DNA of 11,058 bases from Candidatus Falkowiibacteriota bacterium (lineage in GTDB: Bacteria; Patescibacteriota; Patescibacteriia; Patescibacteriales; UBA12075): contig QMNH01000015.1 in assembly GCA_003647675.1 (NCBI GenBank), forward strand, positions 1 through 11,058, given 5' to 3'. This document shows, piece by piece, positions 1,171-11,058 of this stretch. A program made the position numbers and the translations under genes. How positions within the stretch are numbered: position 1 is the first letter of the stretch; every line of letters starts with the position of its first letter. Under the pieces are notes generated by a model. The model was given only the letters and a program-made list of their open reading frames with translations. It was not told where the DNA came from and did not search any database.

Positions 1171-1180
1171 TAATTTAAAT

Positions 1181-1843
1181 ATGAACAAAAAATTAATAGG
1201 ATTCATAATAATATTTTTAGGAGCATTAATAATGTTAGGCTTTTTGTATTTAATGTTCGCGGATAAGCTGGGACTGCCGGACGTTTTTAGTTTTTTAAAA
1301 AATGACAAAGCAGTTGAAGAAATATCAAAAAAGCAGGCTGACGATAATGGCTCCAGCCAGCCAGCCGAGGCCGGCAAGGAAATTAAACGAATTACGATTA
1401 ATCCGAAAGACGCGGACATAACGCAAGAGAATAAAAGCGCCGGCGAAAAAAGGGAGTTTACCAAAGATGATTTAAGCCGAATGGCAGAGTCGTTTGCCGA
1501 GCGTTTTGGAAGCTATTCAAACCAATCTAATTTTAACAATATAGTTGATTTAAAATTATTTATGAGCGAAGAAATGAAAGAGTGGGCTGATTCATACGTT
1601 AGCGGCCAGCGCGGCAGGCAAATTGCCAGTGATATATATTATGGAATTACCACTAAAGCGGTTGGCCGGGAGATAAGGGAGTATGACGATGACGCGGGCC
1701 AGGCCAGTGTTTTTGTGCAGACCAGAAGGCGCGAAGCAACCAGCTCTACCAGCAATACGTCTAAAGTTTTTGACCAAGATATAATAATAAAATTCATAAA
1801 AGAAAAAGGCGCCTGGAAAGTTGATGGCGCGAATTGGCTGTAG
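1181..1843 (+). CDS. Single-pass membrane protein, possible VirB8/NTF2-like outer domain
   Basis: The 220-residue protein has a short basic start (MNKK), one hydrophobic helix at about 5-26, a polar low-complexity linker (about 40-95, rich in K, E, D, S) and a folded C-terminal domain (about 95-220). This predicts an N-in membrane anchor with the domain outside the membrane. The domain has a helix-rich first half (MAESFAERFG to MKEWADSYV) and a strand-rich second half ending in AWKVDGANWL. That arrangement resembles NTF2/VirB8-type folds, but this is inference from pattern and context, not a firm match. It starts 145 bp after the VirB4-like gene on the same strand, which supports a shared envelope machine. 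The ATG has no Shine-Dalgarno sequence, and AT-rich repeats lie just upstream. It is certainly a protein-coding gene; the function is unproven. Confidence 0.75.
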   Translation: MNKKLIGFIIIFLGALIMLGFLYLMFADKLGLPDVFSFLKNDKAVEEISKKQADDNGSSQPAEAGKEIKRITINPKDADITQENKSAGEKREFTKDDLSRMAESFAERFGSYSNQSNFNNIVDLKLFMSEEMKEWADSYVSGQRGRQIASDIYYGITTKAVGREIREYDDDAGQASVFVQTRRREATSSTSNTSKVFDQDIIIKFIKEKGAWKVDGANWL

Positions 1844-1933
1844 TAATAAATTATAAATTATTAGTTCATTTTACGTGCTTTTTAATAAACACTGAATATA
1901 CAATCATTAAACGCGAAATAATTCTTAATATTT

Positions 1934-2030
1934 AATTTTGAATTTAAAATGAATGTTTTAATTTTTAATTTTTAAACATTAAATCATTCAAAATTCATTC
2001 AAAATTATAAATTGGAAATTAAAAATTAAA
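1934..2030. repeat. AT-rich intergenic inverted repeats
   Basis: A 15-bp perfect inverted repeat (TTTAATTTTTAATTT at 1957-1971, complement at 2016-2030) encloses a tandem 11-mer CATTCAAAATT (1985-1995 and 1996-2006). AATTTTGAATT at 1934-1944 is nearly the reverse complement of that 11-mer. The gap between the genes at 1843 and 2083 could therefore fold into a long cruciform. It has no coding content, and no clear promoter was found in it. Confidence 0.5.
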
Positions 2031-2082
2031 CCGTATTTTATATTGTAAGTTTGGGAATATTGTATACGGTAAAATATTAAAC

Positions 2083-2841
2083 GTGCGTAAAATATTTAAT
2101 AAAATGAAAAAAAATTTTTCAATAAAATTGTTTATTGTTTCTTCCGTAGTAGCCCTTATTATTTTCGGAATGCTTTATTTTATTTTAGTATTTAGTTTGG
2201 CTCCGGCAGAAGAGGATTTTAGCTCCGGCGCCAGTAAAGCATCGGATAAATATTATCTTAATGAAAATTATCAGGACGCGGATCCCTATATTACGAAAGT
2301 GCCCAGCCTCAAGGATATGCTGGCCGGACCGATTATAAGCGCCCGGGATCCGAGTAAGGGAGCGGACGCGCCGCAAGTTACGATTATTGAATTTTCCGAT
2401 TTTGAATGCGAGTTTTGTCAACAGCAGGAAAAAGTGCTGGAAAGAATTGTCGATGAATATAAAGATAAAGTAAAATTAATATGGAAGGATTATCCGGACG
2501 CTAATTCGGAATCAGCTTCCTATAAATCCGCGGTCGCGGCCCGCTGTGCTCAGGAACAGGATAAATTTTGGCCTTATCATGATTTGCTTTACCAAAATAC
2601 GAAAAGTTTAAGCGGTGAATTATTCATTAATATTGCCGATTCCATAAATTTAGACAGTGATTTATTCAAAAAATGCTTAAACCAGGGAGAGGCGGAAGAA
2701 TTAGTGCGAGAAAATATTGAAGAAGCCAATGCTCTGGATATAAACGGAATTCCTTTTATTTTTATTAATGATCAAGAAGTAATGGGGGAAATTAGCTTTG
2801 AAGATTTGGAAAGAATAGTAAATATTGAGTTAACAAAATAA
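2083..2841 (+). CDS. Membrane-anchored DsbA-like thiol oxidoreductase
   Basis: The 252-residue protein has a basic N-terminus, a membrane helix at about 14-37, a linker, and a thioredoxin-fold domain from about 85. The active site is C109-E-F-C112 in the context FSDFECEFCQQQE, and the cis-proline loop is G222-I-P-F. An inserted helical region (about 140-215) carries two further cysteines, C155 and C198. This is the DsbA/Thioredoxin_4 architecture, and the anchor places the domain outside the membrane, where it would form or isomerise disulfides in exported proteins. The ORF opens with GTG at 2083. The ATG at 2104 (MKKNFSIKL) is equally plausible because neither has a Shine-Dalgarno site, and both leave the anchor intact. 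It lies 28 bp before radA with no terminator between, so the two are probably cotranscribed. Substrates may include envelope proteins such as the one encoded at 1181. Confidence 0.88.
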   Translation: MRKIFNKMKKNFSIKLFIVSSVVALIIFGMLYFILVFSLAPAEEDFSSGASKASDKYYLNENYQDADPYITKVPSLKDMLAGPIISARDPSKGADAPQVTIIEFSDFECEFCQQQEKVLERIVDEYKDKVKLIWKDYPDANSESASYKSAVAARCAQEQDKFWPYHDLLYQNTKSLSGELFINIADSINLDSDLFKKCLNQGEAEELVRENIEEANALDINGIPFIFINDQEVMGEISFEDLERIVNIELTK

Positions 2842-2869
2842 AATTATCTAAAGAATTTAAATTATTAAT

Positions 2870-4222
2870 ATGGCGGATAAATTATTGGCTATATTTGAAT
2901 GCTCTAAATGCGGCGCCCAATCTCCTAAATGGAGCGGGCGCTGTTTAGAATGCGGTTCTTGGGGAACTTTAGTCGAAACAGTTGTAAGTAAAGGTAAAAA
3001 AAATTTGCAGGATTTAAATATTCAGGGAGCACAAATTATTAATTTAGAGAAAATAAAAATTAGCTCAAGCCAGCGGCTAAAAACCGATATTTCCGAGGTT
3101 GATCAGGTTTTGGGTGGCGGCATAATGCCGGGTTCTTTAGTGCTGTTATCGGGAGAACCGGGCATAGGCAAGTCAACTTTAGTCGCGCAAATCGCGGATA
3201 AAGTTGGTAGAAAAAATAAAAAAGTAGTTTATATTAGCGGAGAAGAGTCAGCGGGGCAAATAAAAGAAAGATTGGAAAGATTAAAATGCGGCATTAAAAA
3301 TATTAATTTTATTTCCGAAACTAATTTGGAAAAAATTATTTCTTCTTTATCGGATTTAAAGCCTGATTTTACAATCATTGATTCAATCCAGACAATTTAT
3401 TCTTCTTTGGTGGGAGTTGAAGCCGGGAGTATAAGCCAGATTCGAGCGGCTACGCTGAAATTTTTGGAATTTGCCAAAGAAAATAATATAGCCATACTGC
3501 TAATCGGTCATGTTACCAAAGACGGCCAGGTAGCCGGACCGAAAACGCTTGAGCATATTGTAGATACAGTGGTTTATCTTGAAAGCGACAAAATAGGGGA
3601 TTACCGCGTCCTGCGCGCCACGAAAAATCGTTTTGGTTCAATAAATGAATTGGGTATTTTCGAAATGACCGGCAGCGGCTTTAAAGAAATTAAAAATCCT
3701 TCATCCGTTTTTATAGACGAAGGGGAAGGAAAAATTACCGGTTCGGTGATAAGCTGTGTCATGGAAGGCACCAGGCCTTTTTTAGTTGAAATTCAGGCCT
3801 TGGCAACCAAGACAGTGTTCGGCTACCCGCAAAGAAAGGCTTCCGGATTTGATTTAAACCGTTTGCAGGTATTGTCATCGGTTTTGACTAAAAGGACAAA
3901 GTTAAATTTATCAAATCAGGACATTATTTTAAATGTTGTCGGCGGACTGAAGATTAACGATCCAAGCCTTGATTTGGCCGTATGTTTGGCTATTATCTCT
4001 TCACTTTTAAATCAATACATAGACAGAAAGACTGTTGTTTTAGGGGAAGTCGGGCTGGGCGGAGAAGTGCGTAAAGTAAATAAACTGGCAGAAAGAATTG
4101 CTGAGGCCGAAAAGCTTGGTTTTACAAACGCGATTTTGCCCGAAGTCAGTGTAAAAGCCAAAAAGATTAATTTGTCCGCGCTAAAAAATTTAAATGAAGC
4201 TGTTAGTTATTTAACTGCGTAA
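2870..4222 (+). CDS. radA: DNA repair protein RadA/Sms
   Basis: The 450 residues match the usual RadA length. In order they show a C4 zinc finger (C11, C14, C25, C28), a RecA-like ATPase with Walker A GEPGIGKST (95-103) and Walker B ending at D171 (FTIIDS), the RadA signature KNRFG (252-256), and a Lon-protease-like domain (about 285-450) including LNVVGGLKINDPSLDLAV and LGEVGLGGEVRKV. RadA is a hexameric DnaB-like motor that promotes branch migration of RecA-made recombination intermediates. The Lon-like domain is structural: an aspartate-containing DPSLDLA segment stands where Lon has its catalytic serine. The ATG at 2870 gives the canonical N-terminus just before the zinc finger, although no strong Shine-Dalgarno is seen. 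It follows the DsbA-like gene by 28 bp and ends at a terminator. Confidence 0.97.
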   Translation: MADKLLAIFECSKCGAQSPKWSGRCLECGSWGTLVETVVSKGKKNLQDLNIQGAQIINLEKIKISSSQRLKTDISEVDQVLGGGIMPGSLVLLSGEPGIGKSTLVAQIADKVGRKNKKVVYISGEESAGQIKERLERLKCGIKNINFISETNLEKIISSLSDLKPDFTIIDSIQTIYSSLVGVEAGSISQIRAATLKFLEFAKENNIAILLIGHVTKDGQVAGPKTLEHIVDTVVYLESDKIGDYRVLRATKNRFGSINELGIFEMTGSGFKEIKNPSSVFIDEGEGKITGSVISCVMEGTRPFLVEIQALATKTVFGYPQRKASGFDLNRLQVLSSVLTKRTKLNLSNQDIILNVVGGLKINDPSLDLAVCLAIISSLLNQYIDRKTVVLGEVGLGGEVRKVNKLAERIAEAEKLGFTNAILPEVSVKAKKINLSALKNLNEAVSYLTA

Positions 4223-4248
4223 AAAAGATTAATTTTTTTAAAAATAAT

Positions 4249-4273
4249 AGCCCAATTTAATATGGGCTTTTTT
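4249..4273 (+). terminator. Intrinsic terminator after radA
   Basis: A 6-bp stem AGCCCA/TGGGCT with an 8-nt AT loop is followed by an unbroken T run (4268-4273). It starts 26 bp after the radA stop codon. Confidence 0.8.
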
Positions 4274-4330
4274 GTTGGCTTGGTTAATATGTGGGTATAA
4301 TTATGGCATATAGCCTGGTACTTATGTATT

Positions 4331-4379
4331 AAAAGGGGCGGAAAGAAATAGGGACTATGCTTGCGCACAGCCCCTTTTT
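4331..4379. terminator. Likely bidirectional terminator between convergent genes
   Basis: A 9-bp perfect stem (AAAAGGGGC at 4331-4339, GCCCCTTTT at 4370-4378) encloses a 30-nt loop. A-rich and T-rich arms give a U-run on either strand. It lies between radA (+) and the small gene at 4435-4749 (-), as expected for convergent transcripts. The long loop makes it less typical than the radA terminator. Confidence 0.5.
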
Positions 4380-4384
4380 GGAAT

Positions 4385-4406
4385 GTAAGATATGGCAGTA
4401 TCTTAC
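4385..4406. other. Perfect 8-bp hairpin
   Basis: GTAAGATA (4385-4392) and TATCTTAC (4399-4406) flank a 6-nt loop, 28 bp beyond the stop codon of the minus-strand gene at 4435. There is no T run, so it may be an operator or a 3'-stabilising hairpin. Confidence 0.4.
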
Positions 4407-4434
4407 TGTTCATGAGCATTAAGAGCAAACCGGT

Positions 4435-4749
4435 TCAAGAGTACTCCCTGCTCTGATCACTCATGAAAACTTTTGTTAGCTTATAGGAAGTTAAAATTTC
4501 CCACAAAGCAGTTTTTACCTCATGTTCGTTAAAGCCCGTTGATTGTATGCCGGTTTTACCATTTGGACCTTTAACGAATATTTTAGCTGTAAATGGTTTT
4601 TCAAATGGAAACATTCCTTTTGGACCAGAGGAGCTGTTATTGGTTGTTACCTGCATTAAGTCTAAGATCTGTTTTTTGTTTTTCTTGATTACGGGAAGTT
4701 CCATTTCTTTGTCATTACCAATACCAATTAGCCCTTCTTGTCTATGCAT
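4435..4749 (-). CDS. Small hypothetical protein, 104 residues
   Basis: I do not recognise this family. A good Shine-Dalgarno (GAAAGGA on the minus strand, + positions 4757-4763) lies 7 nt before the ATG, and a promoter-like pair lies about 125 bp upstream, so the gene is probably real. The protein has a charged N-terminal third (about 1-35), a glycine/serine linker (NNSSSGPKG, 37-45), and a compact C-terminal part (about 46-95, FPFEKPFTAKIFVKGPNGK to VKTALWEILTSYK) that reads as strands, a turn and one amphipathic helix. There is no signal peptide, membrane helix or cysteine. It stands alone between radA and recG on recG's strand. A small cytoplasmic protein or regulator would fit, but no function can be assigned. 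Confidence 0.65.
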   Translation of the reverse strand: MHRQEGLIGIGNDKEMELPVIKKNKKQILDLMQVTTNNSSSGPKGMFPFEKPFTAKIFVKGPNGKTGIQSTGFNEHEVKTALWEILTSYKLTKVFMSDQSREYS

Positions 4750-4871
4750 TTTTATTTCCTTTCTAGTTTTAAAATAAACATTAGAAATACAGCCTATTTA
4801 TCGATAATAATGCATCCCTCCCTTCCAAATTAGCTTGTTAAATTGTTATTATTCAATGGTTATGTATCCTT

Positions 4872-4900
4872 TTTTTATCAAAAAAAGTGGCAATTGTCAA
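4872..4900 (-). promoter_or_regulatory. Candidate sigma70 promoter for the 104-residue gene
   Basis: On the minus strand a perfect -35 TTGACA (+ 4895-4900) is separated by 17 bp from TAAAAA (+ 4872-4877, a 4/6 match to TATAAT). It lies just past the recG stop codon and points at the gene starting at 4749, giving a leader of roughly 115 nt. An AT hairpin (7 T, 3-nt loop, 7 A, closed by C-G; 4869-4887) overlaps the spacer and -10. It could instead be a weak recG terminator. Confidence 0.45.
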
Positions 4901-4919
4901 ATAAAATATTTTTTTTATA

Positions 4920-6986
4920 TTATTCTAAATGTGTTTTTTTCTCCCATTCTCCTAATTTTTGGACTAAAGAAGGATGGTTAATAAGTTTTGGGTCGATATT
5001 CATAAGTTCTTTGGCTTCAGATTGAGCTTGTTTTATTAGCTCATAATCAAATAGAGACGCTATTTTTAATTCCGGAAAGCCTTTTTGCGCTGTTCCGTAA
5101 ACCTCCCCCGGTCCGCGGAATTTTAAATCAATTTTAGCCAGGTCAAAGCCGTTATGATATTTTACCAGCGCGTTTAAACGATTTAAGGTTTTTTGGGATT
5201 CATTATCCGTAAGTAAGAAGCAGTAAGATTGATGGCGGCTTCGTCCGACCCGACCCCGGAATTGGTGGAGTTGGGCCAATCCGAACCGATCTGCGCCCTC
5301 GATCATCATAATAGAGGCGTTGGGAATATCAATTCCGACTTCAATAACCGAGGTAGAAACTAAAATATTTATTTTATTATCAAGGAAGTCTTTCATTATT
5401 TTTTCCTTTTCAGTTGTTTTAAGCCGCCCATGAAGCATGGCAATAGAAAGATCCGGGAAAATAGTATTATTTAATTTTTCAAATTCTTCTTTAACTGATT
5501 TTACTCCTAATTTATCGGAAATATCTATTAAGGGGCAGACTACGTATATTTGCCGGCCTTTATTAATTTGCTTTCTGATAAAATTATAAGCATCGCTCCG
5601 TTTTTTTTCCGGAATAACAAAGGTGTTTATTTTTTTTCTTCCTTTGGGCATTTCGTTAATTATTGTAATGCTTAAATCTCCAAAAAGAGCTAAAGCGAGA
5701 GAGCGGGGGATTGGAGTGGCGGTCATGGATAAAAGATGCGGCAATAGGTTTTTCTTTTCAGATTTATCTATTAAAGTTTTTCTTTGTTCCACGCCAAAAC
5801 GGTGCTGTTCGTCGATAATTACCAAAGCTAAGTTTTTAAAATTAATTTTTTCCTGGATTAAAGCGTGCGTGCCGATTATTATATTTGAGTTATCGGCTAT
5901 TTGTTTGGCGTTTATTTTTTGTATTTTTAAATCATAATTTATTTTTTTTTCTGCCCTTGTCATTAGTCCGATTTTTATTTTTTGGTTTTGAAGTAATTTA
6001 GTTATGCTGTTGTAGTGCTGTACGGCAAGAATTTCAGTCGGTACCATAATAGCGGCCTGGCGTTTATTTAGCGCGGTGTTTAGCATGGCGATTAATGCTA
6101 CAATTGTTTTTCCGCACCCGACGTCGCCTTCCAACAAGCGGGCCATTGGCTTTGATTTTTCCAGATCCTTTATAATTTCCCAGGCTGCTTTTTTTTGGGC
6201 CGGAGTCAAACTAAAAGGCAGTGATTCAACGAATTTTTTTGTTTCATTTTCAAAAAATTTAATTTTTATCGCCCGAAATGATTCCAATTCTTTTTTTATT
6301 AATTCAGACTGGAGCTGGAGAAGAAACAGCTCATTAAAACCAAGCCTTCCGCGGGCATTGTTAATGTCTTTAAAGTTTTTAGGAAAGTGTATATTTTTTA
6401 TTGCTTTATTGAGGGGGAGCAGTTTCTGCCTTTTTATTGTTGCCTCGGGCAGCCAGTCTTCTAATTCGTCAGCTAATAATAATATTTGCTTAATTAAAAA
6501 TCTGATTTGTTTTTCCGTAATATTAGCGGTTAAATGATATATGGGCACCAGGCCTTGCGTGTGGATGGTGTTGCCTGAAATTAATTTTTCATATATTGGC
6601 GAAGTCATTTGCAAGCCGGCTGGGCCATGTTCAACTTTTCCGGCTAAAGAAATTTTATCGCCTGCGCGGAGATTACGGGCAATAAATGGCTGGTTAAACC
6701 ATATTATTTTGATCTGTTCTGTGCTGTCGCTCACTATGGCTTCGGTAATATTTATTCTTTTACGCGGACTGCGCTTATTCTGTATGAGCTCAATCTGGCC
6801 TGTGATATTGGCGCTGGTATTTGGTTTTAGGTTCTTTATTGAAGTTATTTTACTAAAATCATCATATCTAAAAGGAAAGTAATTAAGTAAGTCAATTACA
6901 AAATTAACACCGATTTTTTCCAAGCGCTTCGCGGCCGCGGCTCCAACGCGGTTTAATTTAATAATAGGAGTGTTTAGTTCTATCAT
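4920..6986 (-). CDS. recG: ATP-dependent DNA helicase RecG
   Basis: The 688 residues match full-length RecG. The N-terminal wedge with its OB fold covers about 1-150, starting with the helix-hairpin-helix-like LNRVGAAAAKRLEKIGV. Superfamily 2 helicase motifs follow: Walker A GDVGCGKT (287-294), motif II DEQH in IIDEQHRFGVEQR (392-395), motif III TAT (422-424, then PIPRSLALALFGDLS), VSTSVIEVGIDIP (543-555), and motif VI QLHQFRGRVGRSR (572-584). The C-terminal segment LKFRGPGEVYGTAQ (621-634) fits the RecG translocation region. RecG remodels stalled forks and Holliday junctions and can unwind R-loops. The ATG at 6986 gives the canonical N-terminus, although no Shine-Dalgarno is visible. It is transcribed alone on the minus strand, downstream of the tRNA-Ser/GIY-YIG unit. 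Confidence 0.97.
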   Translation of the reverse strand: MIELNTPIIKLNRVGAAAAKRLEKIGVNFVIDLLNYFPFRYDDFSKITSIKNLKPNTSANITGQIELIQNKRSPRKRINITEAIVSDSTEQIKIIWFNQPFIARNLRAGDKISLAGKVEHGPAGLQMTSPIYEKLISGNTIHTQGLVPIYHLTANITEKQIRFLIKQILLLADELEDWLPEATIKRQKLLPLNKAIKNIHFPKNFKDINNARGRLGFNELFLLQLQSELIKKELESFRAIKIKFFENETKKFVESLPFSLTPAQKKAAWEIIKDLEKSKPMARLLEGDVGCGKTIVALIAMLNTALNKRQAAIMVPTEILAVQHYNSITKLLQNQKIKIGLMTRAEKKINYDLKIQKINAKQIADNSNIIIGTHALIQEKINFKNLALVIIDEQHRFGVEQRKTLIDKSEKKNLLPHLLSMTATPIPRSLALALFGDLSITIINEMPKGRKKINTFVIPEKKRSDAYNFIRKQINKGRQIYVVCPLIDISDKLGVKSVKEEFEKLNNTIFPDLSIAMLHGRLKTTEKEKIMKDFLDNKINILVSTSVIEVGIDIPNASIMMIEGADRFGLAQLHQFRGRVGRSRHQSYCFLLTDNESQKTLNRLNALVKYHNGFDLAKIDLKFRGPGEVYGTAQKGFPELKIASLFDYELIKQAQSEAKELMNIDPKLINHPSLVQKLGEWEKKTHLE

Positions 6987-7012
6987 GGTATTATTTTATC
7001 ATATTTTAAACA

Positions 7013-7034
7013 AAATAAAAAAGCCTGTATAGGC
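7013..7034 (-). terminator. Weak intrinsic terminator before recG
   Basis: Read on the minus strand, a short GCCT/AGGC stem with a 4-nt loop (+ 7023-7034) is followed by six T residues, an A and four more T residues. It would end transcripts from the tRNA-Ser and GIY-YIG region before recG. The stem is only 4-5 bp. Confidence 0.45.
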
Positions 7035-7059
7035 CTAGATGCGTAAAAATAATTATAAT

Positions 7060-7074
7060 GCGGAGAGAGTGGGA
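7060..7074 (-). repeat. Displaced 15-bp copy of the tRNA-Ser(UGA) 3' end
   Basis: GCGGAGAGAGTGGGA here is identical to 7448-7462, which covers the acceptor 3' strand and part of the T arm of tRNA-Ser(UGA). The two copies are in the same orientation, 388 bp apart, and bracket the GIY-YIG gene. This is what integration at a tRNA 3' end leaves behind. The base before this copy (T) matches the flank of tRNA-Ser(GCU), suggesting it may preserve the original flank. Confidence 0.7.
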
Positions 7075-7108
7075 CTGACTACGCTAAAGCTTCGTCAGTT
7101 AAAATTCT
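7074..7108 (+). repeat. 35-bp direct repeat, copy A (hairpin element)
   Basis: It matches 7374-7408 at 33 of 35 positions (differences at 7081/7381 and 7093/7393), exactly 300 bp apart. Inside it the arms ACTGAC (7074-7079) and GTCAGT (7094-7099) flank the 14-nt core TACGCTAAAGCTTC. It directly abuts the displaced tRNA-Ser end, and on the minus strand it encodes the last residues (RILTDEALA) and stop codon of the GIY-YIG ORF. Confidence 0.8.
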
Positions 7109-7333
7109 TTTTTTTAAAACCGCTCTACCACTTCCTGTTTTAAAATATTTTTCTAGTCTTCTGGCATGCGTTTCTCTTGGAACAGCAATATAAGCTAAAA
7201 GTTTTACCGGTAATAAATTCATTGTTGCTTTTACCTCTCCCTTTTTATGATTTAATAATCGATTATTTAGATTTTTTGTCGACCCTATATAGATATCATT
7301 ATTAGATAACTTTAAAAAATACACATAACCCAT
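7079..7333 (-). CDS. Small stand-alone GIY-YIG nuclease-domain protein
   Basis: From the ATG at 7333 the protein has 84 residues, close to the size of stand-alone YhbQ/UvrC-N-type GIY-YIG proteins. Motifs are visible in order: YVYFL (3-7) for GIY, YIGST (15-19) for YIG, R25 and H29 in NNRLLNHKKG, and E61 in LEKYFKTGSGR (60-70), supplying the usual tyrosine, arginine and metal-binding glutamate. The frame runs upstream to a GTG at 7411, but those 26 codons come from repeat copy B (RILTDKALA) and have no ribosome site, so the internal ATG is preferred. The last residues (RILTDEALA) come from repeat copy A. It lies downstream of tRNA-Ser(UGA) on the same strand. It could be a housekeeping nuclease or a homing-like gene of a small mobile unit; the flanking repeats favour the latter. 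Confidence 0.85.
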   Translation of the reverse strand: MGYVYFLKLSNNDIYIGSTKNLNNRLLNHKKGEVKATMNLLPVKLLAYIAVPRETHARRLEKYFKTGSGRAVLKKRILTDEALA

Positions 7334-7373
7334 AATATTATTTTTCAGTAAATTTACCAAGTAAACTAGCGAA

Positions 7374-7408
7374 ACTGACTGCGCTAAAGCTTTGTCAGTT
7401 AAAATTCT
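7374..7408 (+). repeat. 35-bp direct repeat, copy B (hairpin element)
   Basis: This is the partner of 7074-7108. Arms AACTGAC (7373-7379) and GTCAGTT (7394-7400) enclose TGCGCTAAAGCTTT, a two-base variant of the copy A core. It lies upstream of the GIY-YIG start codon. Confidence 0.8.
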
Positions 7409-7426
7409 CACAAAACTGCGGATTTA

Positions 7427-7452
7427 TCCGCCGAAGCTTTAGCGTAGGCGGA
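7427..7452 (-). repeat. Hairpin element, copy C, overlapping the tRNA-Ser 3' end
   Basis: On the minus strand TCCGCC and GGCGGA arms flank TACGCTAAAGCTTC, the exact core of copy A in inverted orientation, with entirely different but perfectly complementary arms. The right arm (+ strand) shares CGGA (7449-7452) with the 3' end of tRNA-Ser(UGA). An adjoining small hairpin (7418-7431) could let the pair act as a 3' end signal for the tRNA transcript. Confidence 0.75.
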
Positions 7453-7535
7453 GAGAGTGGGATTCGAACCCACGGTACGCGTTAACGTACAACAGTTTTC
7501 AAGACTGTCGCCTTCAACCGCTCAGCCATCTCTCC
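7449..7535 (-). tRNA. tRNA-Ser(UGA)
   Basis: The 87-nt class II tRNA has acceptor GGAGAGA/TCTCTCC with discriminator G. The anticodon stem is ACAGT/ACTGT with loop CTTGAAA (anticodon TGA). The long variable arm is built on GTACG/CGTAC, and the T arm is GTGGG TTCGAAT CCCAC. No CCA is encoded (the 3' flank is CCT). It lies 47 bp downstream of tRNA-Ser(GCU) and is probably cotranscribed with it. Its 3' end overlaps hairpin copy C and is duplicated at 7060. Confidence 0.95.
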
Positions 7536-7549
7536 GATAATATTAAAAC

Positions 7550-7567
7550 AGACAATATATATTGTCT
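7550..7567. other. 18-bp perfect palindrome between the tRNA-Ser genes
   Basis: AGACAATATATATTGTCT is fully self-complementary. On the minus strand it follows the tRNA-Ser(GCU) 3' end and precedes GTTTTAAT, so it may act as a processing hairpin or a weak terminator between the two tRNAs. Confidence 0.5.
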
Positions 7568-7582
7568 TATTTTATGAATATG

Positions 7583-7669
7583 CGGAGAGGGAGGGATTCG
7601 AACCCTCGAGAGCCGTTAAGCCCTAACACCTTAGCAGGGTGCCCCTTTCAGCCGCTCAGGCACCTCTCC
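7583..7669 (-). tRNA. tRNA-Ser(GCU)
   Basis: The 87-nt class II tRNA has acceptor GGAGAGG/CCTCTCC with discriminator G. The anticodon stem is GCACC/GGTGT with loop CTGCTAA (anticodon GCT). A long variable arm is present, and the T arm is GAGGG TTCGAAT CCCTC. No CCA is encoded (the 3' flank is CAT). It is the promoter-proximal member of the serine tRNA pair. Confidence 0.95.
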
Positions 7670-7681
7670 AAAAAAGAAAAT

Positions 7682-7770
7682 AGAAAACAGACGCCAGACC
7701 ACAGAATTATTTACGTAATTTTAATAATTTAACTATTTTTTTGTTTACTGCTGCCTGTTGTCTGTTTTCT
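7682..7770. repeat. 11-bp inverted repeat flanking the divergent promoter region
   Basis: AGAAAACAGAC (7682-7692) and GTCTGTTTTCT (7760-7770) are perfect inverted copies 67 bp apart. They lie between the minus-strand tRNA-Ser genes and the plus-strand gene at 7821. The right copy overlaps the -35 element of the 7821 promoter. The 9-mer AAAACAGAC recurs at 7546-7554. Confidence 0.5.
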
Positions 7771-7786
7771 TGATAAATGCTATAAT
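7758..7786 (+). promoter_or_regulatory. Sigma70-type promoter for the gene at 7821
   Basis: TTGTCT (7758-7763), a 17-bp spacer, and a perfect TATAAT (7781-7786) preceded by TGC, an extended -10. Transcription would start near 7793, leaving a leader of about 28 nt with no Shine-Dalgarno site. Confidence 0.7.
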
Positions 7787-7820
7787 TACTATATAAAAAT
7801 AGTCAATAAATGTCAAACTA

Positions 7821-8321
7821 ATGAAAAAAAAAGAAAATTTAACTGATTTTAAAGATGATATAATTGGCTGGGAAGTGCATGAATATGAAAAGCACGAAAG
7901 ATCCAGGCCCTGGTATTTTATTGCTGTTTCAATCGCTTTTTTACTTCTGCTTTATTCATTTTTTACTTCTAATTTTCTTTTTGCGTTTATTATTGTTTTA
8001 GCTTCCCTGGTTTTTGTTATGTATGAAGGGCAGATTCCCGGCATAGTTAAAATCAGCCTGACAGACGAGGGGGTAGTTGTCGGCAGGAAATTTTACGATT
8101 ATGATGAAATAAAGAATTTTACTGTTATATATAAGCCGCGACTGGAGACTAAGAATATATATTTTGAGTTTAAAAATGTGTTCCGCCACAGACTTTCTGT
8201 TCCATTGGAAAAAATGGATCCGATTGTAATTAGGGAAAATTTATTAAAATATCTGCCGGAAAACCATGAAAGAACCGACCCGCCGTTGTCTGAGGGACTA
8301 GCCAAACTTTTTAAATTGTAA
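7821..8321 (+). CDS. Conserved-type two-helix membrane protein, unknown function
   Basis: The 166 residues comprise a charged cytoplasmic N-terminus (WEVHEYEKHERSRPW, 17-31), two closely spaced membrane helices (about 32-48 and 51-67), and a soluble C-terminal domain (about 75-150) of alternating strands: ISLTDEGVVVGRKFYDYDEI, NFTVIY, NIYFEFKN, HRLSVPLE, then a helix. This order resembles small PH-like membrane-associated domains (bPH/DUF5673-type), but that is inference. The N- and C-terminal domains should both be cytoplasmic, with a helical hairpin in the membrane. It has its own extended -10 promoter and an AT-rich terminator, so it is a single-gene unit between tRNA genes. The ATG at 7821 is the first in frame; an out-of-frame ATG at 7809 stops after three codons. 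Confidence 0.85.
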   Translation: MKKKENLTDFKDDIIGWEVHEYEKHERSRPWYFIAVSIAFLLLLYSFFTSNFLFAFIIVLASLVFVMYEGQIPGIVKISLTDEGVVVGRKFYDYDEIKNFTVIYKPRLETKNIYFEFKNVFRHRLSVPLEKMDPIVIRENLLKYLPENHERTDPPLSEGLAKLFKL

Positions 8322-8341
8322 ATAAGAAAAAAAAGAAAAAA

Positions 8342-8373
8342 AAGAAAATAATTGCTATTTTCTTATTTTTTTT
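8342..8373 (+). terminator. AT-rich intrinsic terminator after the membrane-protein gene
   Basis: A 9-bp perfect stem AAGAAAATA/TATTTTCTT with a 5-nt loop (8351-8355) is followed by A and eight T residues. The loop and 3' arm also contain the -35 of the tRNA-Arg promoter. Confidence 0.7.
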
Positions 8374-8380
8374 CTATAAT
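8352..8380 (+). promoter_or_regulatory. Promoter of tRNA-Arg(GCG)
   Basis: TTGCTA (8352-8357), a 17-bp spacer and a perfect TATAAT (8375-8380) place the start at about 8387, roughly 12 nt before the mature tRNA. It overlaps the upstream terminator. Confidence 0.65.
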
Positions 8381-8398
8381 TCAAGTACTTTTTTATAA

Positions 8399-8470
8399 GC
8401 ACCCGTCGTTCAACGGATAGGACGCAAGATTGCGGATCTTGTAATGTAGGTTCGATTCCTGCCGGGTGCA
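8399..8470 (+). tRNA. tRNA-Arg(GCG)
   Basis: The 72-nt class I tRNA has acceptor GCACCCG/CGGGTGC with discriminator A. The D stem is GTTC/GGAC. The anticodon stem CAAGA/TCTTG carries loop TTGCGGA (anticodon GCG). The T arm is GTAGG TTCGATT CCTGC. No CCA is encoded (the flank is CAA). The GCG anticodon reads CGC and CGU by ordinary G34 pairing, whereas most bacteria use an ACG tRNA edited to inosine. Its 3' half is duplicated immediately downstream. Confidence 0.94.
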
Positions 8471-8494
8471 CAAGAATACTACATAAAGACTTTT

Positions 8495-8560
8495 TTGTAA
8501 TTAGGTTCGATTTTTACCCGTCCGTAGCTTTATGTGCAGGCGGGCCTGCCGGGTGCACAA
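8495..8560 (+). pseudogene. Duplicated 3' half of tRNA-Arg, split by a hairpin insertion
   Basis: TTGTAAT-TAGGTTCGATT (8495-8512) matches 8439-8457 of tRNA-Arg with one base deleted, and CCTGCCGGGTGCACAA (8545-8560) matches 8458-8473 exactly. Together they repeat the tRNA from the anticodon stem 3' strand to just past its end. The two parts are contiguous in the tRNA but separated here by 32 bp. It lacks a 5' half and cannot form a tRNA. Confidence 0.85.
8513..8544 (+). mobile_element. Hairpin element, divergent copy D, inside the tRNA-Arg duplicate
   Basis: The 32-bp insertion contains arms CCCGTC (8517-8522) and GGCGGG (8539-8544), pairing with one T-G wobble, around the core CGTAGCTTTATGTGCA. 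That core resembles the complement of the copy C core (GAAGCTTTAGCGTA), sharing AGCTTTA. It sits exactly between the two halves of the duplicated tRNA segment, as a mobile palindrome would. An 8-mer ACATAAAG upstream (8481-8488) is also inverted within it (CTTTATGT, 8528-8535). Membership in the family is an inference from partial similarity. Confidence 0.55.
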
Positions 8561-8616
8561 TTTAAAACCTTTTCATTTTAGGTGGAGAGTGTTTTTTTGT
8601 TATAAATATGAGTAAC

Positions 8617-8652
8617 AAACCTCGGATATGATTATTATCCGAGGTTTTTTTT
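8617..8652 (+). terminator. Strong intrinsic terminator
   Basis: A 12-bp perfect stem AAACCTCGGATA/TATCCGAGGTTT with a 7-nt loop is followed by a run of T. No recognised gene ends nearby. The transcript it ends could be the tRNA-Arg transcript or an unrecognised short RNA. A seven-codon frame (ATG at 8608, peptide MSNKPRI, stop at 8629-8631) overlaps the left arm. Confidence 0.85.
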
Positions 8653-8772
8653 ATTTATGTTTGTATTTTATTATTTTTGTTATATAAACATCCTACCTCC
8701 CCATGCTTGTGCCTTGAGCGGACTAACAAAAAGCGGAAATTGAATTTGAGTCGGAATTAGAAAGAAATAATT
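8653..8772. other. Intergenic stretch with no recognised content
   Basis: This 120-bp stretch separates the strong terminator from the stop codon of the minus-strand 94-residue gene. GCGGA occurs twice (8717 and 8734) but does not form a hairpin. No convincing terminator for the minus-strand gene was seen. Confidence 0.4.
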
Positions 8773-9057
8773 TTATAATTTATAATTAATTCCTACACGT
8801 CCGTCATTATCAGCACCTATTTCGATTGTTCTGCCATTTTCCGTGGTAAACGAATAACGTTTTACTTCTCCTGTCGGGACAGCTGCGATTGCGTTGTGTG
8901 CATGAATATGCTCTATAAATTGAGCTTCAGTCAAATCTGGCCCTGTTAGCTTTTCAATGAGCTCCTCAATTTCGGGTGCTTGCTTAATTAAATCCTCCCT
9001 TGAATCCACGGAGATTATTTCCCTTGGTGTTTTTTGTTTTAATTTTTCGAATGCCAT
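8773..9057 (-). CDS. Small hypothetical protein, 94 residues
   Basis: I do not recognise this family. The N-terminal half is acidic and helical (REDLIKQAPEIEELIEKL, 20-37, then LTEAQFIEHIHAHNAI, 42-57). The C-terminal third reads as a beta hairpin (VKRYSFTTENGRTIEIG to RVGINYKL, 65-94). There is no signal peptide, membrane helix or cysteine. H50, H52 and H54 are closely spaced, but no metal role can be claimed. The ATG lacks an adjacent Shine-Dalgarno; a strong AGGAGGT lies about 55 nt further upstream inside a GC-rich hairpin. The composition looks protein-like and the frame is closed by stops on both sides. The protein is likely cytoplasmic. Confidence 0.7.
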   Translation of the reverse strand: MAFEKLKQKTPREIISVDSREDLIKQAPEIEELIEKLTGPDLTEAQFIEHIHAHNAIAAVPTGEVKRYSFTTENGRTIEIGADNDGRVGINYKL

Positions 9058-9108
9058 AGTTTTTAAGTTATCTAATTTATAAAATTATTTTTTCTAACAT
9101 ATCGCCGA

Positions 9109-9169
9109 GCCCACCTCCTCGCGGTTGCGTTTTGGGTGGGCATTGACAGGGAATACCCCTTACCCAAAA
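9109..9169 (-). promoter_or_regulatory. Mutually exclusive hairpins in the leader of the 94-residue gene
   Basis: GCCCACC (9109-9115) pairs with GGTGGGC (9135-9141), while TTTTGGGT (9130-9137) pairs with ACCCAAAA (9162-9169). The two stems share bases, so only one can form. On the minus strand the first stem hides an AGGAGGT (+ 9113-9119) that precedes a short frame (ATG at 9100, peptide MLEKIIL). The layout suits a leader control element; no ligand class is recognised. Confidence 0.4.
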
Positions 9170-9271
9170 TTCAATATTATTTTTATCGTTTATTTCTAAA
9201 AAATTTTATTTATTAGGCCATATAAGGACTCGATAATTTTTACTCTGTGGGCTTGAAAAAAGGCGACTTTT

Positions 9272-9320
9272 ATGTTAAGTTATTTTAACATTAAATATTA
9301 ATGATTTGAAACTAATATTT
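9272..9320. promoter_or_regulatory. Two AT-rich hairpins upstream of the gene at 9353
   Basis: ATGTTAA/TTAACAT (9272-9278, 9285-9291) and AAATATTA/TAATATTT (9293-9300, 9313-9320) are perfect stems, the second ending 20 bp before the Shine-Dalgarno at 9341. They may be operators or leader structures. No clear promoter was identified. Confidence 0.35.
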
Positions 9321-9340
9321 AAATTAAGATGTTCTTTTTG

Positions 9341-9348
9341 AAAGGAGG
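9341..9348 (+). promoter_or_regulatory. Shine-Dalgarno that sets the start at 9353
   Basis: AAAGGAGG lies 4 nt before the ATG at 9353. The frame is open from an ATG at 9329, but the Shine-Dalgarno would then be inside the coding sequence, so 9353 is the start. Confidence 0.85.
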
Positions 9349-9352
9349 AATT

Positions 9353-9589
9353 ATGAACATTGATAGAATGATATACCTGTATGGAAACGAACCCCCTTTG
9401 TACTATTATTCGGTATGTTTATTATGTTTTGGACTGGGCTATAACTATGCTAATTATTCGAATTGGGGATTCTCGTTTTTCTTCGGAAATACTCTAGTAC
9501 TTTTTATCGGCATTCAAATCATGGATGCGCTAATTAAGGGAGTAAAAAAAATTAAAAAGGATTTTAAGGTGTCCATTACCCCAAGGTAA
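9353..9589 (+). CDS. Small two-helix membrane protein, 78 residues
   Basis: I do not recognise this family. From the ribosome-site-supported ATG the protein has a short polar N-terminus, two hydrophobic segments (about 17-33, rich in tyrosine and cysteine, and 40-61), and a basic tail (KGVKKIKKDFK, 62-72). The positive-inside rule puts both ends in the cytoplasm. C22 and C25 (CLLC) lie within the first helix. It is a single gene with its own terminator. Small basic-tailed two-helix proteins can be holin-like, toxin or accessory membrane proteins, but nothing here decides between these. Confidence 0.75.
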   Translation: MNIDRMIYLYGNEPPLYYYSVCLLCFGLGYNYANYSNWGFSFFFGNTLVLFIGIQIMDALIKGVKKIKKDFKVSITPR

Positions 9590-9605
9590 CAGTACTTTTA
9601 TATCG

Positions 9606-9633
9606 ACCATCGAGAAATCGGTGGTTATTTTTT
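9606..9633 (+). terminator. Intrinsic terminator with a GAAA tetraloop
   Basis: The 8-bp stem ACCATCGA/TCGGTGGT (one T-G pair) is closed by GAAA, a stable GNRA loop, and followed by TATTTTTT. It starts 17 bp after the stop codon at 9589. Confidence 0.85.
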
Positions 9634-9636
9634 GTT

Positions 9637-9656
9637 CCTGCCTGCCGGCAGGCAGG
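9637..9656. repeat. 20-bp perfect GC-rich palindrome
   Basis: CCTGCCTGCCGGCAGGCAGG is fully self-complementary and contrasts with the AT-rich surroundings. It lies just after the terminator at 9606-9633. It resembles dispersed palindromes of bacterial genomes and shares CCTGCCGG with the tRNA-Arg duplicate at 8545. Confidence 0.8.
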
Positions 9657-9712
9657 GAAACTGAATTTGGGAGAGCGAGCGTTAAGAATTAAATTATTTA
9701 TGACAATTTTGC

Positions 9713-9741
9713 TTGACTGATTTATAGTATAGTATTATAAT
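9713..9741 (+). promoter_or_regulatory. Strong sigma70 promoter for the gene at 9791
   Basis: TTGACT (9713-9718), a 17-bp spacer and a perfect TATAAT (9736-9741). Transcription should begin near 9748, giving a 43-nt leader that ends in the Shine-Dalgarno GGGAGGT (9778-9784), 6 nt before the ATG. Confidence 0.85.
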
Positions 9742-9790
9742 AGTGTATTCTTTTAAAAAAACATTAATTAACATATAGGGAGGTATTCTA

Positions 9791-10114
9791 ATGGTAAATC
9801 AGGGTTTAGTAACGGTAAAATCAGGTATCAATGTGATGATGAAGGTGGTTTCAGGATGTGATGGCCATAATGCCCAAAAACTCGCCGAGAAACTTAAGAA
9901 GACCTGGCCGCTAGAAGCAGAAGAAGTCAGTCGGATTGCCTATAAAGTTGGATTTGGTTGCGAAAAATGCATTATTGTTTTTACGGAAACAGAAACTATT
10001 TTTAGTGGGGATGACGAAATTTTTTTGGGATATAAAAAAGAGTTTCAAAATCCTAATTTTAATCCAAGATCGGCGAGAGGCACTGCTGACCATGTGGTAA
10101 TAATCGATGTTTAA
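9791..10114 (+). CDS. Small hypothetical protein with a GCEKC motif, 107 residues
   Basis: I do not recognise this family. The gene has the best expression signals in the window: a near-consensus promoter, a strong Shine-Dalgarno and a terminator. The protein reads as strand (VTVKSGINVMMKVVSG, 7-22), helix (HNAQKLAEKLKKTWPLEAEEVSRIAYKV, 26-53), then strands (CIIVFTETETIFSG, 60-73; EIFLGYKKEF, 76-85; DHVVIIDV, 100-107), a small alpha/beta fold. C57 and C60 in FGCEKC, with C23 in SGCDGHN, could bind a metal or form a disulfide. There is no membrane helix or signal peptide, so it is probably cytoplasmic and well expressed. No pathway context is available from its neighbours. Confidence 0.8.
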   Translation: MVNQGLVTVKSGINVMMKVVSGCDGHNAQKLAEKLKKTWPLEAEEVSRIAYKVGFGCEKCIIVFTETETIFSGDDEIFLGYKKEFQNPNFNPRSARGTADHVVIIDV

Positions 10115-10132
10115 AGAATAACGTTTTTGTGG

Positions 10133-10167
10133 GGGCGTGGCATACAATTGTCACGTCCTTCTTTATT
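10133..10167 (+). terminator. Intrinsic terminator after the 107-residue gene
   Basis: GGGCGTGGCA (10133-10142) pairs over 10 bp with TGTCACGTCC (10149-10158), including two G-T pairs, around a 6-nt loop. It is followed by TTCTTTATT. Confidence 0.75.
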
Positions 10168-10184
10168 ATAAATTGTCAAAATAA

Positions 10185-10225
10185 TTTTATTTAACTCGCG
10201 AAGTCAGGTACGCCGTATTAGGCTA
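10185..10225 (-). repeat. Cassette-like intergenic repeat, copy 1
   Basis: It begins with TTTTATTTAACTCGC (10185-10199, + strand), identical to 10598-10612. The next 20-25 bp remain partly similar (CAG, GTACGCCGTATTA here against GTACCGCATTA there). On the minus strand it lies downstream of the 73-residue gene. Confidence 0.6.
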
Positions 10226-10228
10226 CAT

Positions 10229-10250
10229 AACAAAATATTTTAGGTGGTGC
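10229..10250. repeat. 22-bp inverted repeat, left arm
   Basis: It is the perfect reverse complement of 10535-10556. It contains the palindrome AAAATATTTT and ends in AGGTGGTGC. The two arms enclose the 73-residue gene. The 11-mer ATTTTAGGTGG within it (10237-10247) also occurs at 8575-8585. Confidence 0.85.
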
Positions 10251-10288
10251 GGGGAAATGATACGTTCCTCGCTGAGTGCTTATACGTT

Positions 10289-10510
10289 TTAGTCGAAAGG
10301 TTTTGCTAATAAGCATATTCCACAGACAATAAACACTGCTGCCGGTAAAAATAGTACGCCTGAATTAGGTATTTTACTATGGACACCAGCGAAAAGGTAA
10401 ACCGTTCCAAGTCCTGAAAAGATCAATCCGAATATTCTGCGCAAAACGCGTAAAAAGTGTTTAATTTCAAACGGAAAAAACTTTTTAATGTCACATACAT
10501 TTTTAGTCAT
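10289..10510 (-). CDS. Small two-helix membrane protein, 73 residues
   Basis: I do not recognise this family. A consensus Shine-Dalgarno (AAGGAGG, + 10517-10523) lies 6 nt before the ATG, so translation is well supported. The N-terminal 25 residues are basic and amphipathic (IKKFFPFEIKHFLRVLRR). Two hydrophobic helices follow (about 26-44 and 51-68), joined by the loop HSKIPNSG, with a short LLAKPFD tail, so both ends should face the cytoplasm. The gene sits wholly inside a 22-bp perfect inverted repeat and is followed by a cassette-like repeat, which suggests it is the cargo of a small mobile unit. Its transcript could form a long stem joining the 5' leader and the 3' end. No enzymatic motif is present. 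Confidence 0.75.
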   Translation of the reverse strand: MTKNVCDIKKFFPFEIKHFLRVLRRIFGLIFSGLGTVYLFAGVHSKIPNSGVLFLPAAVFIVCGICLLAKPFD

Positions 10511-10534
10511 TGTGTTCCTCCTTGTTTAGAATTT

Positions 10535-10556
10535 GCACCACCTAAAATATTTTGTT
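10535..10556. repeat. 22-bp inverted repeat, right arm
   Basis: It is the reverse complement of 10229-10250 without mismatch. In the minus-strand transcript it lies in the leader of the 73-residue gene, 12 nt before the AAGGAGG. Confidence 0.85.
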
Positions 10557-10597
10557 TATTTATAAAAATTTTATATAAACTTTATTATTTATTTAAT

Positions 10598-10638
10598 TTT
10601 TATTTAACTCGCAAACCAGATGTACCGCATTATATGAT
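10598..10638 (-). repeat. Cassette-like intergenic repeat, copy 2
   Basis: It is the partner of 10185-10225 in the same orientation, 413 bp away. On the minus strand it lies just downstream of the gene ending at 10660, as copy 1 lies downstream of the 73-residue gene. Confidence 0.6.
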
Positions 10639-10659
10639 GTAAATTTTTTATTTAATAAA

Positions 10660-11013
10660 TTAAGAATTTTTATTTGCCAATAATCTTAAAAATGATGAAA
10701 CGGTATTTATTATTATTTCAACGTCATGTCTGTCGTAGTTTTTTATTGTCCCATGTTTAATGCTATCCATCCAATCTTTTAGATTTCTAAATAATTCTTT
10801 TGAATATTTCGTACTAAAACCTATTTTTTTCGAATCATCATTTTTAAATACATGTTTAAATCCTTTATTTTTGTTCCCTAGAACTATCTTGGCTATTTCA
10901 TCACAAGCTGTATACATATCTTCAATAGCATCCTTTAATTGCGATTTATTTTTGGCAAATAAAAATTCTCTTAGTCCCTCTTCATAATTTTTTATAAAAT
11001 AGATTAAATCCAA
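10660..11013 (-). CDS. Small protein, possibly HEPN-related, 117 residues, TTG start
   Basis: The frame opens with TTG (MDLIYFIK), preceded by GAGG 8 nt upstream and by an in-frame stop two codons before, so this rare start is the only one that includes the N-terminal helix; the next ATG is at residue 33. The protein is almost entirely helical (about 1-20, 24-45, 68-86, 96-113). The region WMDSIKHGTIKNYDRHDVEIIINTVSSFLR (81-110) recalls the C-terminal helices of HEPN-type proteins from abortive-infection and toxin families, where an HG-containing loop precedes the last helix. A canonical RxxxxH motif is not clear, so activity is doubtful and the assignment tentative. A possible -10 (TATACT, + 11036-11041) lies upstream; its -35 falls outside the window. 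Confidence 0.65.
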   Translation of the reverse strand: MDLIYFIKNYEEGLREFLFAKNKSQLKDAIEDMYTACDEIAKIVLGNKNKGFKHVFKNDDSKKIGFSTKYSKELFRNLKDWMDSIKHGTIKNYDRHDVEIIINTVSSFLRLLANKNS

Positions 11014-11020
11014 TATTTAA

Positions 11021-11024
11021 CCTC
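11021..11024 (-). promoter_or_regulatory. Shine-Dalgarno supporting a TTG start
   Basis: On the minus strand TTAGAGGTTAAATA precedes the TTG at 11013, giving GAGG with a spacer of 7-8 nt. It decides the start of the 117-residue gene. Confidence 0.55.
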
Positions 11025-11058
11025 TAAATTAATACAGTATAAAAGTAATTTATAGTGA

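Follow-up and report, generated by a model that had tools for sequence, protein, structure and literature searches.

A KSGSG-type GIY-YIG nuclease gene with terminal hairpins at a tRNA-Ser 3′ end: a candidate minimal mobile element and its 30-bp hairpin family

The unit at the tRNA-Ser(TGA) gene

The window analysed here is an 11,058-nucleotide stretch of DNA from Candidatus Falkowiibacteriota bacterium (GenBank assembly GCA_003647675.1, contig QMNH01000015.1, positions 1 to 11,058). At the 3′ end of its tRNA-Ser(TGA) gene we noted a compact unit in which the tRNA end is followed, in order, by hairpins C and B, the gene of a GIY-YIG nuclease, hairpin A and a 15-bp copy of the tRNA end. The features are as follows.

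7447–7535, minus strand: tRNA-Ser(TGA), the putative target gene (ARAGORN)
7448–7462, minus strand: tRNA-proximal copy of the 15-bp tRNA 3′-end direct repeat, TCCCACTCTCTCCGC
7427–7452, minus strand: hairpin C (left terminal, adjoining the tRNA), TCCGCC-TACGCTAAAGCTTC-GGCGGA
7418–7426, minus strand: TAAA spacer and partial third arm TCCGC, 3′ of hairpin C, from the sequence
7374–7399, plus strand: hairpin B, ACTGAC-TGCGCTAAAGCTTT-GTCAGT, antisense to the nuclease gene and 40 nt upstream of its ATG
7079–7333, minus strand: GIY-YIG nuclease gene of the KSGSG subfamily (PF01541, E = 1.2e-11), with an internal ATG at 7333
7074–7099, plus strand: hairpin A (right terminal), ACTGAC-TACGCTAAAGCTTC-GTCAGT, read from the sequence
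7060–7074, minus strand: distal copy of the tRNA-Ser 3′-end direct repeat, 15 bp, adjoining hairpin A
7060–7447, minus strand: whole unit, 388 bp, absent after tRNA-Ser(TGA) in genomes G009, G004, G006 and G007

The mechanically called open reading frame of the nuclease extends from 7079 to 7411, and the start was taken at the internal ATG. The final codons of the gene (TDEALA-stop) are encoded by hairpin A, and the left arm of hairpin C consists of the last nucleotides of the tRNA-Ser gene. The first-pass annotation of this DNA had placed the three hairpins at these positions, with arms and cores that agree with the window sequence, and had described them as lying next to tRNA genes or fragments; this is borne out, as C overlaps the tRNA-Ser(TGA) 3′ end and A abuts the 15-bp copy. 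It had overlooked the GIY-YIG gene between A and B and gave the unit as 26 nt, when it is actually 30 nt. Between the two repeats there is no open reading frame of at least 60 aa besides the GIY-YIG gene and no tyrosine integrase. A comparison of positions 7040–7560 with a phage collection gave 20 matches listed of 51, all of them to the tRNA-Ser part only. As DNA, hairpins A, B and C each fold only 1.2–1.7 sd better than shuffled sequences. The covariance model described below (R1) scores hairpin B at E = 1.2e-4, B being outside the training alignment A1; hairpins A and C are members of that alignment and their matches are by construction.

In G009, G004, G006 and G007, which are of the same family, the tRNA-Ser(TGA) gene ends in ...TCCGC and runs straight into other DNA. 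In the window, the AT-rich flank beyond the distal repeat resembles the flank at these empty sites. Since the tRNA-Ser ends are empty in genomes of the same family and are followed by a similar AT-rich flank, we interpret 7060–7447 as an insertion. Presence and absence at a corresponding intergenic site, a criterion for homing endonucleases, was therefore observed.

The hairpin family and its 30-bp unit

Among 59 related genomes of the order, 38 contain exact copies of the core TNCGCTAAAGCTNC, 227 in all (26 in the richest), compared with two copies of the reversed pattern. In the source genome there are 21 core matches with at most two mismatches, against four for the reversed pattern, and several of them carry paired arms that differ from one another: TCCGCC/GGCGGA (upstream of tRNA-Gln), CCCGCC/GGCGGG and, with one mismatch, CCCCAC/GAGGGG. 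The window by itself is not decisive (three core matches with at most three mismatches compared with 1.27 expected), and it is on the genome-level counts that we judge the family to be real.

Pairing of the arms was assessed by position in 112 distinct copies, which come from fetched loci only and represent about half of the 227. Watson–Crick pairing is approximately 7–10 sd above shuffles at positions 2–6 and 6 sd above at position 1, with 99 pairs at position 5 (75.5 ± 2.4 in shuffles) and 91 at position 6 (54.6 ± 4.4); at position 7 it falls to background. The covarying arms are 6 bp long. A short 3′ flank after the right arm, CAAG or TAAA, is also conserved. Two-sided changes were counted in alignment A1, which comprises 69 copies with at least five pairs each and from which locus L049, also with at least five pairs, was kept out as a likely chance match. 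Such changes were observed in all six arm pairs, with 83 double-changed cells compared with 21.8 ± 3.4 in shuffles and 6–17 in slid controls. The arms nevertheless share a strong consensus, YCCKCC. A third copy of the arm beyond the 4-nt spacer gives a weak signal, yet one that exceeds all 500 shuffles.

The inner part of the loop also varies in a concerted way. In the mini-stem GCT-AA-AGC a T-A pair is switched together to C-G, and among the listed matches to TNCGCYAARGCTNC, which come from 46 of the 59 genomes (the reversed control gives 15 matches overall), the inner pair is T-A in at least about 80, C-G in 46, C-A in 17 and T-G in four; this tally was made by hand, and six of the C-G rows belong to one tandem array. 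Because the inner pair covaries, the loop is read as a second small stem. Some copies have a longer and different loop, for example TTC-GCGCTTTGCGC-TAC. As read from the sequences, the hairpin is generally organized as arm – TWC – inner stem – TWC – arm′. The earlier claims of a fixed core with covarying arms and of selection for the folded form are therefore sustained, with pairing at positions 1–6. An Rfam scan of nine loci returned only tRNA, tmRNA and rRNA above the cut-off. We do note sub-threshold sX4 matches (27.7–31.7 of 70 bits) that span tRNA-Ser and hairpin in loci L357, L347 and L001.

In genome G043 the hairpin forms a tandem array (locus L402, G043:C2:53283–53446) with a period of exactly 30 bp. 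The array lies directly upstream of a likely gene start, and the contig ends within it. This array, together with TrpS and a tRNA fragment that each contain a clean insertion of 30 bp, shows that the hairpin unit is 30 bp (ten codons), not 26. Among 102 hairpins with at least four pairs, 42 lie inside stop-to-stop frames of at least 150 aa. In 33 of these 42 the hairpin is on the same strand and in one frame, with five, two and two in the other open frames; the favoured frame reads PSYAKASEGK and variants, a stop-free ten-codon cassette. The cassette-bearing proteins include PheS, ValS, TrpS and RecG, names which, like those of the other genes, we assign from the sequences themselves.

Two insertions can be compared directly with empty sites. 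In TrpS, exactly ten extra residues are found between G and YGDFK in three of 18 sequences; G017 has the insertion, whereas its congener G045 lacks it in both of its TrpS copies. At the DNA level it is a clean insertion of 30 bp in which both arms are new, the arm sequence not being present in the empty copies. In locus L364, two more copies of the 3′ portion of a tRNA-Ser gene lie between that gene and the nuclease gene, and the third of these three adjacent tRNA-Ser 3′ fragments is split by an insert of exactly 30 bp; read on the other strand it is ACCGCC-TACGCCAAGGCTTC-GGCCGG-CAGG, with four of six arm pairs. The two empty copies alongside do not contain the arm sequence. No target duplication was found at either the TrpS or the L364 insertion. 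A loop of PheS holds the PSYAKASEGK-type peptide in G050 and G043. In the PheS of G042 and G016 (L427 and L434) the same loop contains other palindromic-looking peptides, LTPPAPLLKGGLRG and PGPSPAGAGEWR, and from these sequences other cassette families may share the PheS site.

A stricter pattern, CCNCCTWCGCTAAAGCTWCGGNGG, was found in at least 119 stretches of the collection, with approximately 0.1 expected by our estimate. The 80 stretches with titles comprise 30 from Patescibacteria/CPR, 13 from Bacteroidota, 12 from Alphaproteobacteria, eight from Verrucomicrobiota/Kiritimatiellota, 11 others (which include Geomonas, Nitrospira, Planctomycetota, Omnitrophota and Armatimonadota) and six without a name. 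Judged by record titles, which are sometimes doubtful (L236, titled Rhizobium, has 39% G+C), the hairpin is present in at least ten phyla. Most of these stretches are metagenome-assembled genomes (MAGs), single contigs of which can be misassigned. Among the titles that name strains and are not marked as MAGs are Mesorhizobium sp. SOD10, Bradyrhizobium sp. CSA112 and Arg816, B. betae Opo-243 and Geomonas diazotrophica Red69, and since named strains carry the hairpin it is not merely a metagenome artefact. In IMG/VR the consensus was found in 35 viral-contig stretches (L310–L344), some with several variants. Arms and flanks were tabulated for 174 distinct cores from the titled and viral stretches. 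Scans of viral contigs with two nuclease queries gave no confirmed match, and a tblastn search of plasmids with a Xanthobacteraceae nuclease gave none.

The KSGSG nuclease, hairpins and tRNA ends

The nuclease of the window belongs to a GIY-YIG (PF01541) subfamily with the signature E-x-Y-[LF]-K-[ST]-G-S-G. Residues Y5, Y15, R25, H29 and E61 are invariant in an alignment of 18 sequences (A2), and the conserved Tyr, Tyr, Arg and Glu are presumably catalytic. NCBIfam returned nothing above cut-off for the five KSGSG proteins tested, and the subfamily is without a name there. By sequence, its closest relatives with a solved structure are UPF0213 proteins and the SLX1 nucleases, which are structure-specific. 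At least 1593 of 1600 candidate proteins pass E ≤ 1e-8.

Of 284 cores, only 11 have a GIY-YIG gene of any type within 600 bp, and in eight of these 11 the neighbour is of one kind, ...E-x-Y-L-K-S-G-S-G-x-A-F.... In Patescibacteria a TWC hairpin lies within 300 bp of 12 of 23 KSGSG genes compared with none of 42 other GIY-YIG genes (p = 3e-7), and each of three control triplets was found near none of the 23. A covariance model of the hairpin, one of the checks suggested with the first reading, was built and matched 12 of 30 KSGSG-query loci and two of 60 control loci at E ≤ 0.01. The first KSGSG query was the nuclease from a locus that had itself been found by its hairpin; two replicates used other queries. 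In the first of these, a phylum-wide nuclease set, the model matched 18–19 of 29 loci at a similar limit, some of the matches being distant from the nuclease and two of the loci repeating earlier ones (L448 = L347, L463 = L355). In the third set, ranked by a protein profile whose alignment (A2) includes the first query protein and others from hairpin loci, matches at E ≤ 0.05 were seen in five of eight KSGSG loci and none of 20 others; two of these loci (L477 and L479) hold copies that were used in model building, which leaves three of six, and three KSGSG loci (L480–L482) are without a match. A link to GIY-YIG genes at large was rejected, model matches at E ≤ 0.01 being present in one of the 30 PF01541 loci read.

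The distribution of cores among genomes, from counts copied or made by hand, points in the same direction. The nine genomes with a detected KSGSG gene have a median of 14 cores, compared with two in the 50 without (p = 0.003), detection here resting on one GIY locus, the best, in each of 30 genomes. Of the 50, 37 still hold cores, up to 34 per genome, where one or two per genome can be chance (the reversed pattern totals 15). Core counts show a correlation of rho 0.55 with GIY-YIG genes of all kinds and a weak one of rho 0.31 with Y1 transposases.

In alphaproteobacteria, loci L195, L213 and L230, which were found via the hairpin, have the DNA order tRNA – hairpin – nuclease; a tRNA-end repeat was sought in these three loci and none was found. 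Among 120 listed homologues of the Xanthobacteraceae nuclease, those fetched with names being alphaproteobacterial, all 11 proteins of at least 91 aa begin with a hairpin-like peptide of the MPSEALAKEG type, in some cases decayed or shifted, directly before the nuclease start as read at the peptide level. The antisense hairpin consensus that would encode MPSEALAKEG (P0009, P0023, P0060 and others) contains AAGGAGG, and from its sequence this stretch of the stem is a possible ribosome-binding site.

A tRNA or tmRNA 3′ end is found no more than 350 bp upstream of 32 of 46 KSGSG genes compared with six of 52 other GIY-YIG genes (p = 2.5e-9); KSGSG was called here by a pattern slightly different from that in the hairpin-proximity test. 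A repeat of the tRNA 3′ end of at least 12 bp lies past the gene in seven of the 32 KSGSG loci with an upstream tRNA and in none of the other 25. The repeats are 15 bp in the window, 17 in L447, 13 in L347, 15 in L353, 15 in L355, 14 in L369 and 19 in L358. None of the six other GIY-YIG loci with an upstream tRNA has a repeat, a contrast that is not significant (p = 0.57) and involves too few loci. A right end consisting of GAATTTTA, hairpin and tRNA repeat is common to the window, L447, L347 and L369; two of these loci have the arms ACTGAC/GTCAGT, and the remaining two have paired arms of other sequence.

The arms in many cases follow the adjacent RNA gene: a CCA end is accompanied by TGG, the CCA-less TCCG of the window by CGGA and the CAC of tmRNA by GTG. 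In the KSGSG-query loci, the last three nucleotides of the RNA together with three flanking nucleotides are complemented within 60 nt at 18 of 75 tRNA/tmRNA 3′ ends, where 500 shuffles gave a mean of 1.9 and a maximum of six; control loci gave two of 25 compared with 0.6. The first reading had drawn attention to the match between an arm and the tRNA end, and this part of it holds also at other RNA-gene ends, where the outer left arm is formed by the tRNA or tmRNA end itself; the copying of target sequence that it was thought to favour is not required. In L068, L100, L102, L107 and L045 the hairpins adjoin tRNA 5′ ends in the opposite orientation, and the arm is partly tRNA end.

Interpretation and alternative explanations

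In our view, the locus is probably a minimal element of tRNA ends, mobile or homing, that terminates in hairpins and of which the 30-bp hairpins are derivatives. This reading rests, at the level of sequence, on the hairpin family and its covariation, the 30-bp unit, the occupied and empty sites, the link to KSGSG nucleases and the tRNA-end repeats. A complete unit would be approximately 320–420 bp long, would lie at a tRNA or tmRNA 3′ end and would consist of one GIY-YIG endonuclease gene with hairpin ends, with 13–19 bp of the tRNA 3′ end directly repeated at its flanks in some loci. Several results weigh against this reading: cores in 37 of the 50 genomes where no KSGSG gene was detected, the small share of cores (11 of 284) near a GIY-YIG gene, the 25 of 32 loci that lack the direct repeat, as do L195, L213 and L230, the KSGSG loci L480–L482 that the model does not match, and the correlation of core counts with GIY-YIG genes of all kinds and, weakly, with Y1 transposases. 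The constant parts of the hairpin would be TWC, the inner mini-stem and TWC, followed by CAAG or TAAA, while the arms would need only to pair, so that compensatory changes could let them drift. On its own, the 30-bp hairpin would be a non-autonomous, REP/MITE-like derivative that has spread among tRNA ends and intergenic sites and, as the PSYAKASEGK cassette, into proteins. As to the steps of movement, we infer that the nuclease may recognize the folded hairpin (a cruciform or single strand) by its shape and loop and may cut at tRNA ends or hairpins, with repair then copying the element in as in homing. The bolder proposal, that this is a new class of bacterial mobile element with a GIY-YIG enzyme as its sole mobility protein, approximately 350 bp long, hairpin-ended, specific for tRNA 3′ ends, shape-reading and mobilizing a 30-bp in-frame satellite in trans, is one that we put forward only tentatively.

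The strongest rival is a free-standing homing endonuclease similar to T4 SegB, whose gene carries at its start a hairpin that hides the ribosome-binding site, the solo hairpins being recombination debris. According to PMC2988022, SegB is a single GIY-YIG gene in a tRNA intergenic region, segB has a hairpin at its ribosome-binding site, its spread is probably by cutting and repair, and free-standing T4 enzymes cut hundreds to thousands of bp away. The hairpin-like peptides that abut the start of the 11 long homologues and the AAGGAGG inside the antisense consensus agree with a role in translation. Hairpin B, however, is placed 40 nt before the ATG, and neither of its arms resembles an SD sequence; hairpins are found also at the far end of the unit (in the window, L347, L369 and L447), and many genomes hold hairpins far from any nuclease and in frame in proteins. 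Terminal hairpins, tRNA-3′-end repeats, dispersed 30-bp derivatives and a location on bacterial chromosomes likewise set the present unit apart from SegB, and we consider this rival unlikely. The favoured element would add hairpin termini and in-frame satellites to what is seen in free-standing homing endonucleases.

The first-pass annotation had raised a mobility mechanism that copies target sequence into both arms. In outline, mobility is supported, since tRNA ends are directly repeated, empty sites exist and a nuclease is linked to the hairpins. For target copying, in which the right arm is synthesized on the target and the arms mirror the site, one may cite the matches at 18 of 75 RNA ends and the third arm beyond the spacer, equalled in none of 500 shuffles; co-movement of the tRNA end with the hairpin, or targeting guided by pairing, explains the RNA-gene ends as well. 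The TrpS and L364 insertions, clean 30-bp additions with both arms new and empty sites that lack the arm, rule out copying into both arms at these two sites and do not support it as a general rule, and the shared consensus of the arms also speaks against it, which makes this explanation very unlikely. A non-mobile host signal (a terminator or a signal for RNA processing, uptake or recombination) would account for the conserved fold, for hairpins that abut mature RNA ends and for the sX4 matches far below cut-off. Such a signal is hardly credible given hairpins on both strands and within coding regions, presence and absence at corresponding sites, and the nine loci in which Rfam identified only known stable RNAs.

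REPs are linked to RAYT transposases (IS200/IS605-like) and have a two-part stem with an internal loop, which the present hairpin resembles; like them it is a short dispersed palindrome tied to a small endonuclease gene, and 41 of 59 genomes have a PF01797 match. It is nevertheless highly improbable that the hairpins are classical REPs mobilized by a Y1 (RAYT) transposase. The nuclease here is GIY-YIG, not Y1 HUH, the arms covary freely around a constant loop, and the hairpins are often in genes (the 42 of 102 noted above), whereas REPs by definition seldom overlap coding regions (PMC12306157). Covariance-model matches at E ≤ 0.01 were seen in one of 30 PF01797 loci read, the correlation of core counts with Y1 genes is weak and the core-rich genomes G008, G036 and G048 have no PF01797 match; on these grounds a RAYT transposase was ruled out as the partner. 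The favoured element would work like REP/RAYT systems and homing endonucleases while differing from the former in its enzyme.

Other known systems can be compared with this probable element. Rickettsia palindromic elements are palindromes that interrupt unrelated protein genes while keeping the reading frame, as do the present hairpins, with 33 of the 42 in coding regions in one frame; according to PMC10969869 they are approximately 150 bp long and from Rickettsia, and the present hairpin is 30 bp long, occurs in many phyla and has a linked nuclease and tRNA-end unit. MITEs have terminal inverted repeats, target duplications and a transposase acting in trans; the present hairpin is palindromic, there is no target duplication at TrpS or L364, and its enzyme is a putative one. 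Integrative elements at tRNA 3′ ends use a tyrosine recombinase. They share with the window and the other loci of the seven the repetition of the tRNA 3′ end at the far boundary, and differ in that here there is no integrase, the unit is less than 0.5 kb and the ends are hairpins. Among the open-access PMC papers listed by our searches, we came across no account of this hairpin family, nor of GIY-YIG elements at tRNA ends that terminate in hairpins.

These observations tie a common, uncharacterized small nuclease subfamily to a dispersed hairpin with hosts in many phyla, by record title, and offer a concrete reason for the odd SYAKASEGK-type peptides that interrupt conserved proteins. They also present a candidate element whose stems possibly vary freely, since only fold and loop may count. 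If mobility is the work of the nuclease, the unit would be among the smallest autonomous mobile units known to us, and precise 30-bp insertions that keep the reading frame would matter for protein evolution and annotation. Should the reading as a novel class prove true, many phyla would be gaining a ten-codon peptide cassette in essential proteins.

Elsewhere in the window we note a perfect 22-bp inverted repeat (10229–10250 and 10535–10556), the copies of which are 284 bp apart, and a second inverted repeat close by (10663–10684 and 10948–10969, 95%). From their sequences, these pairs within 10229–10969 are possibly another small insertion element.
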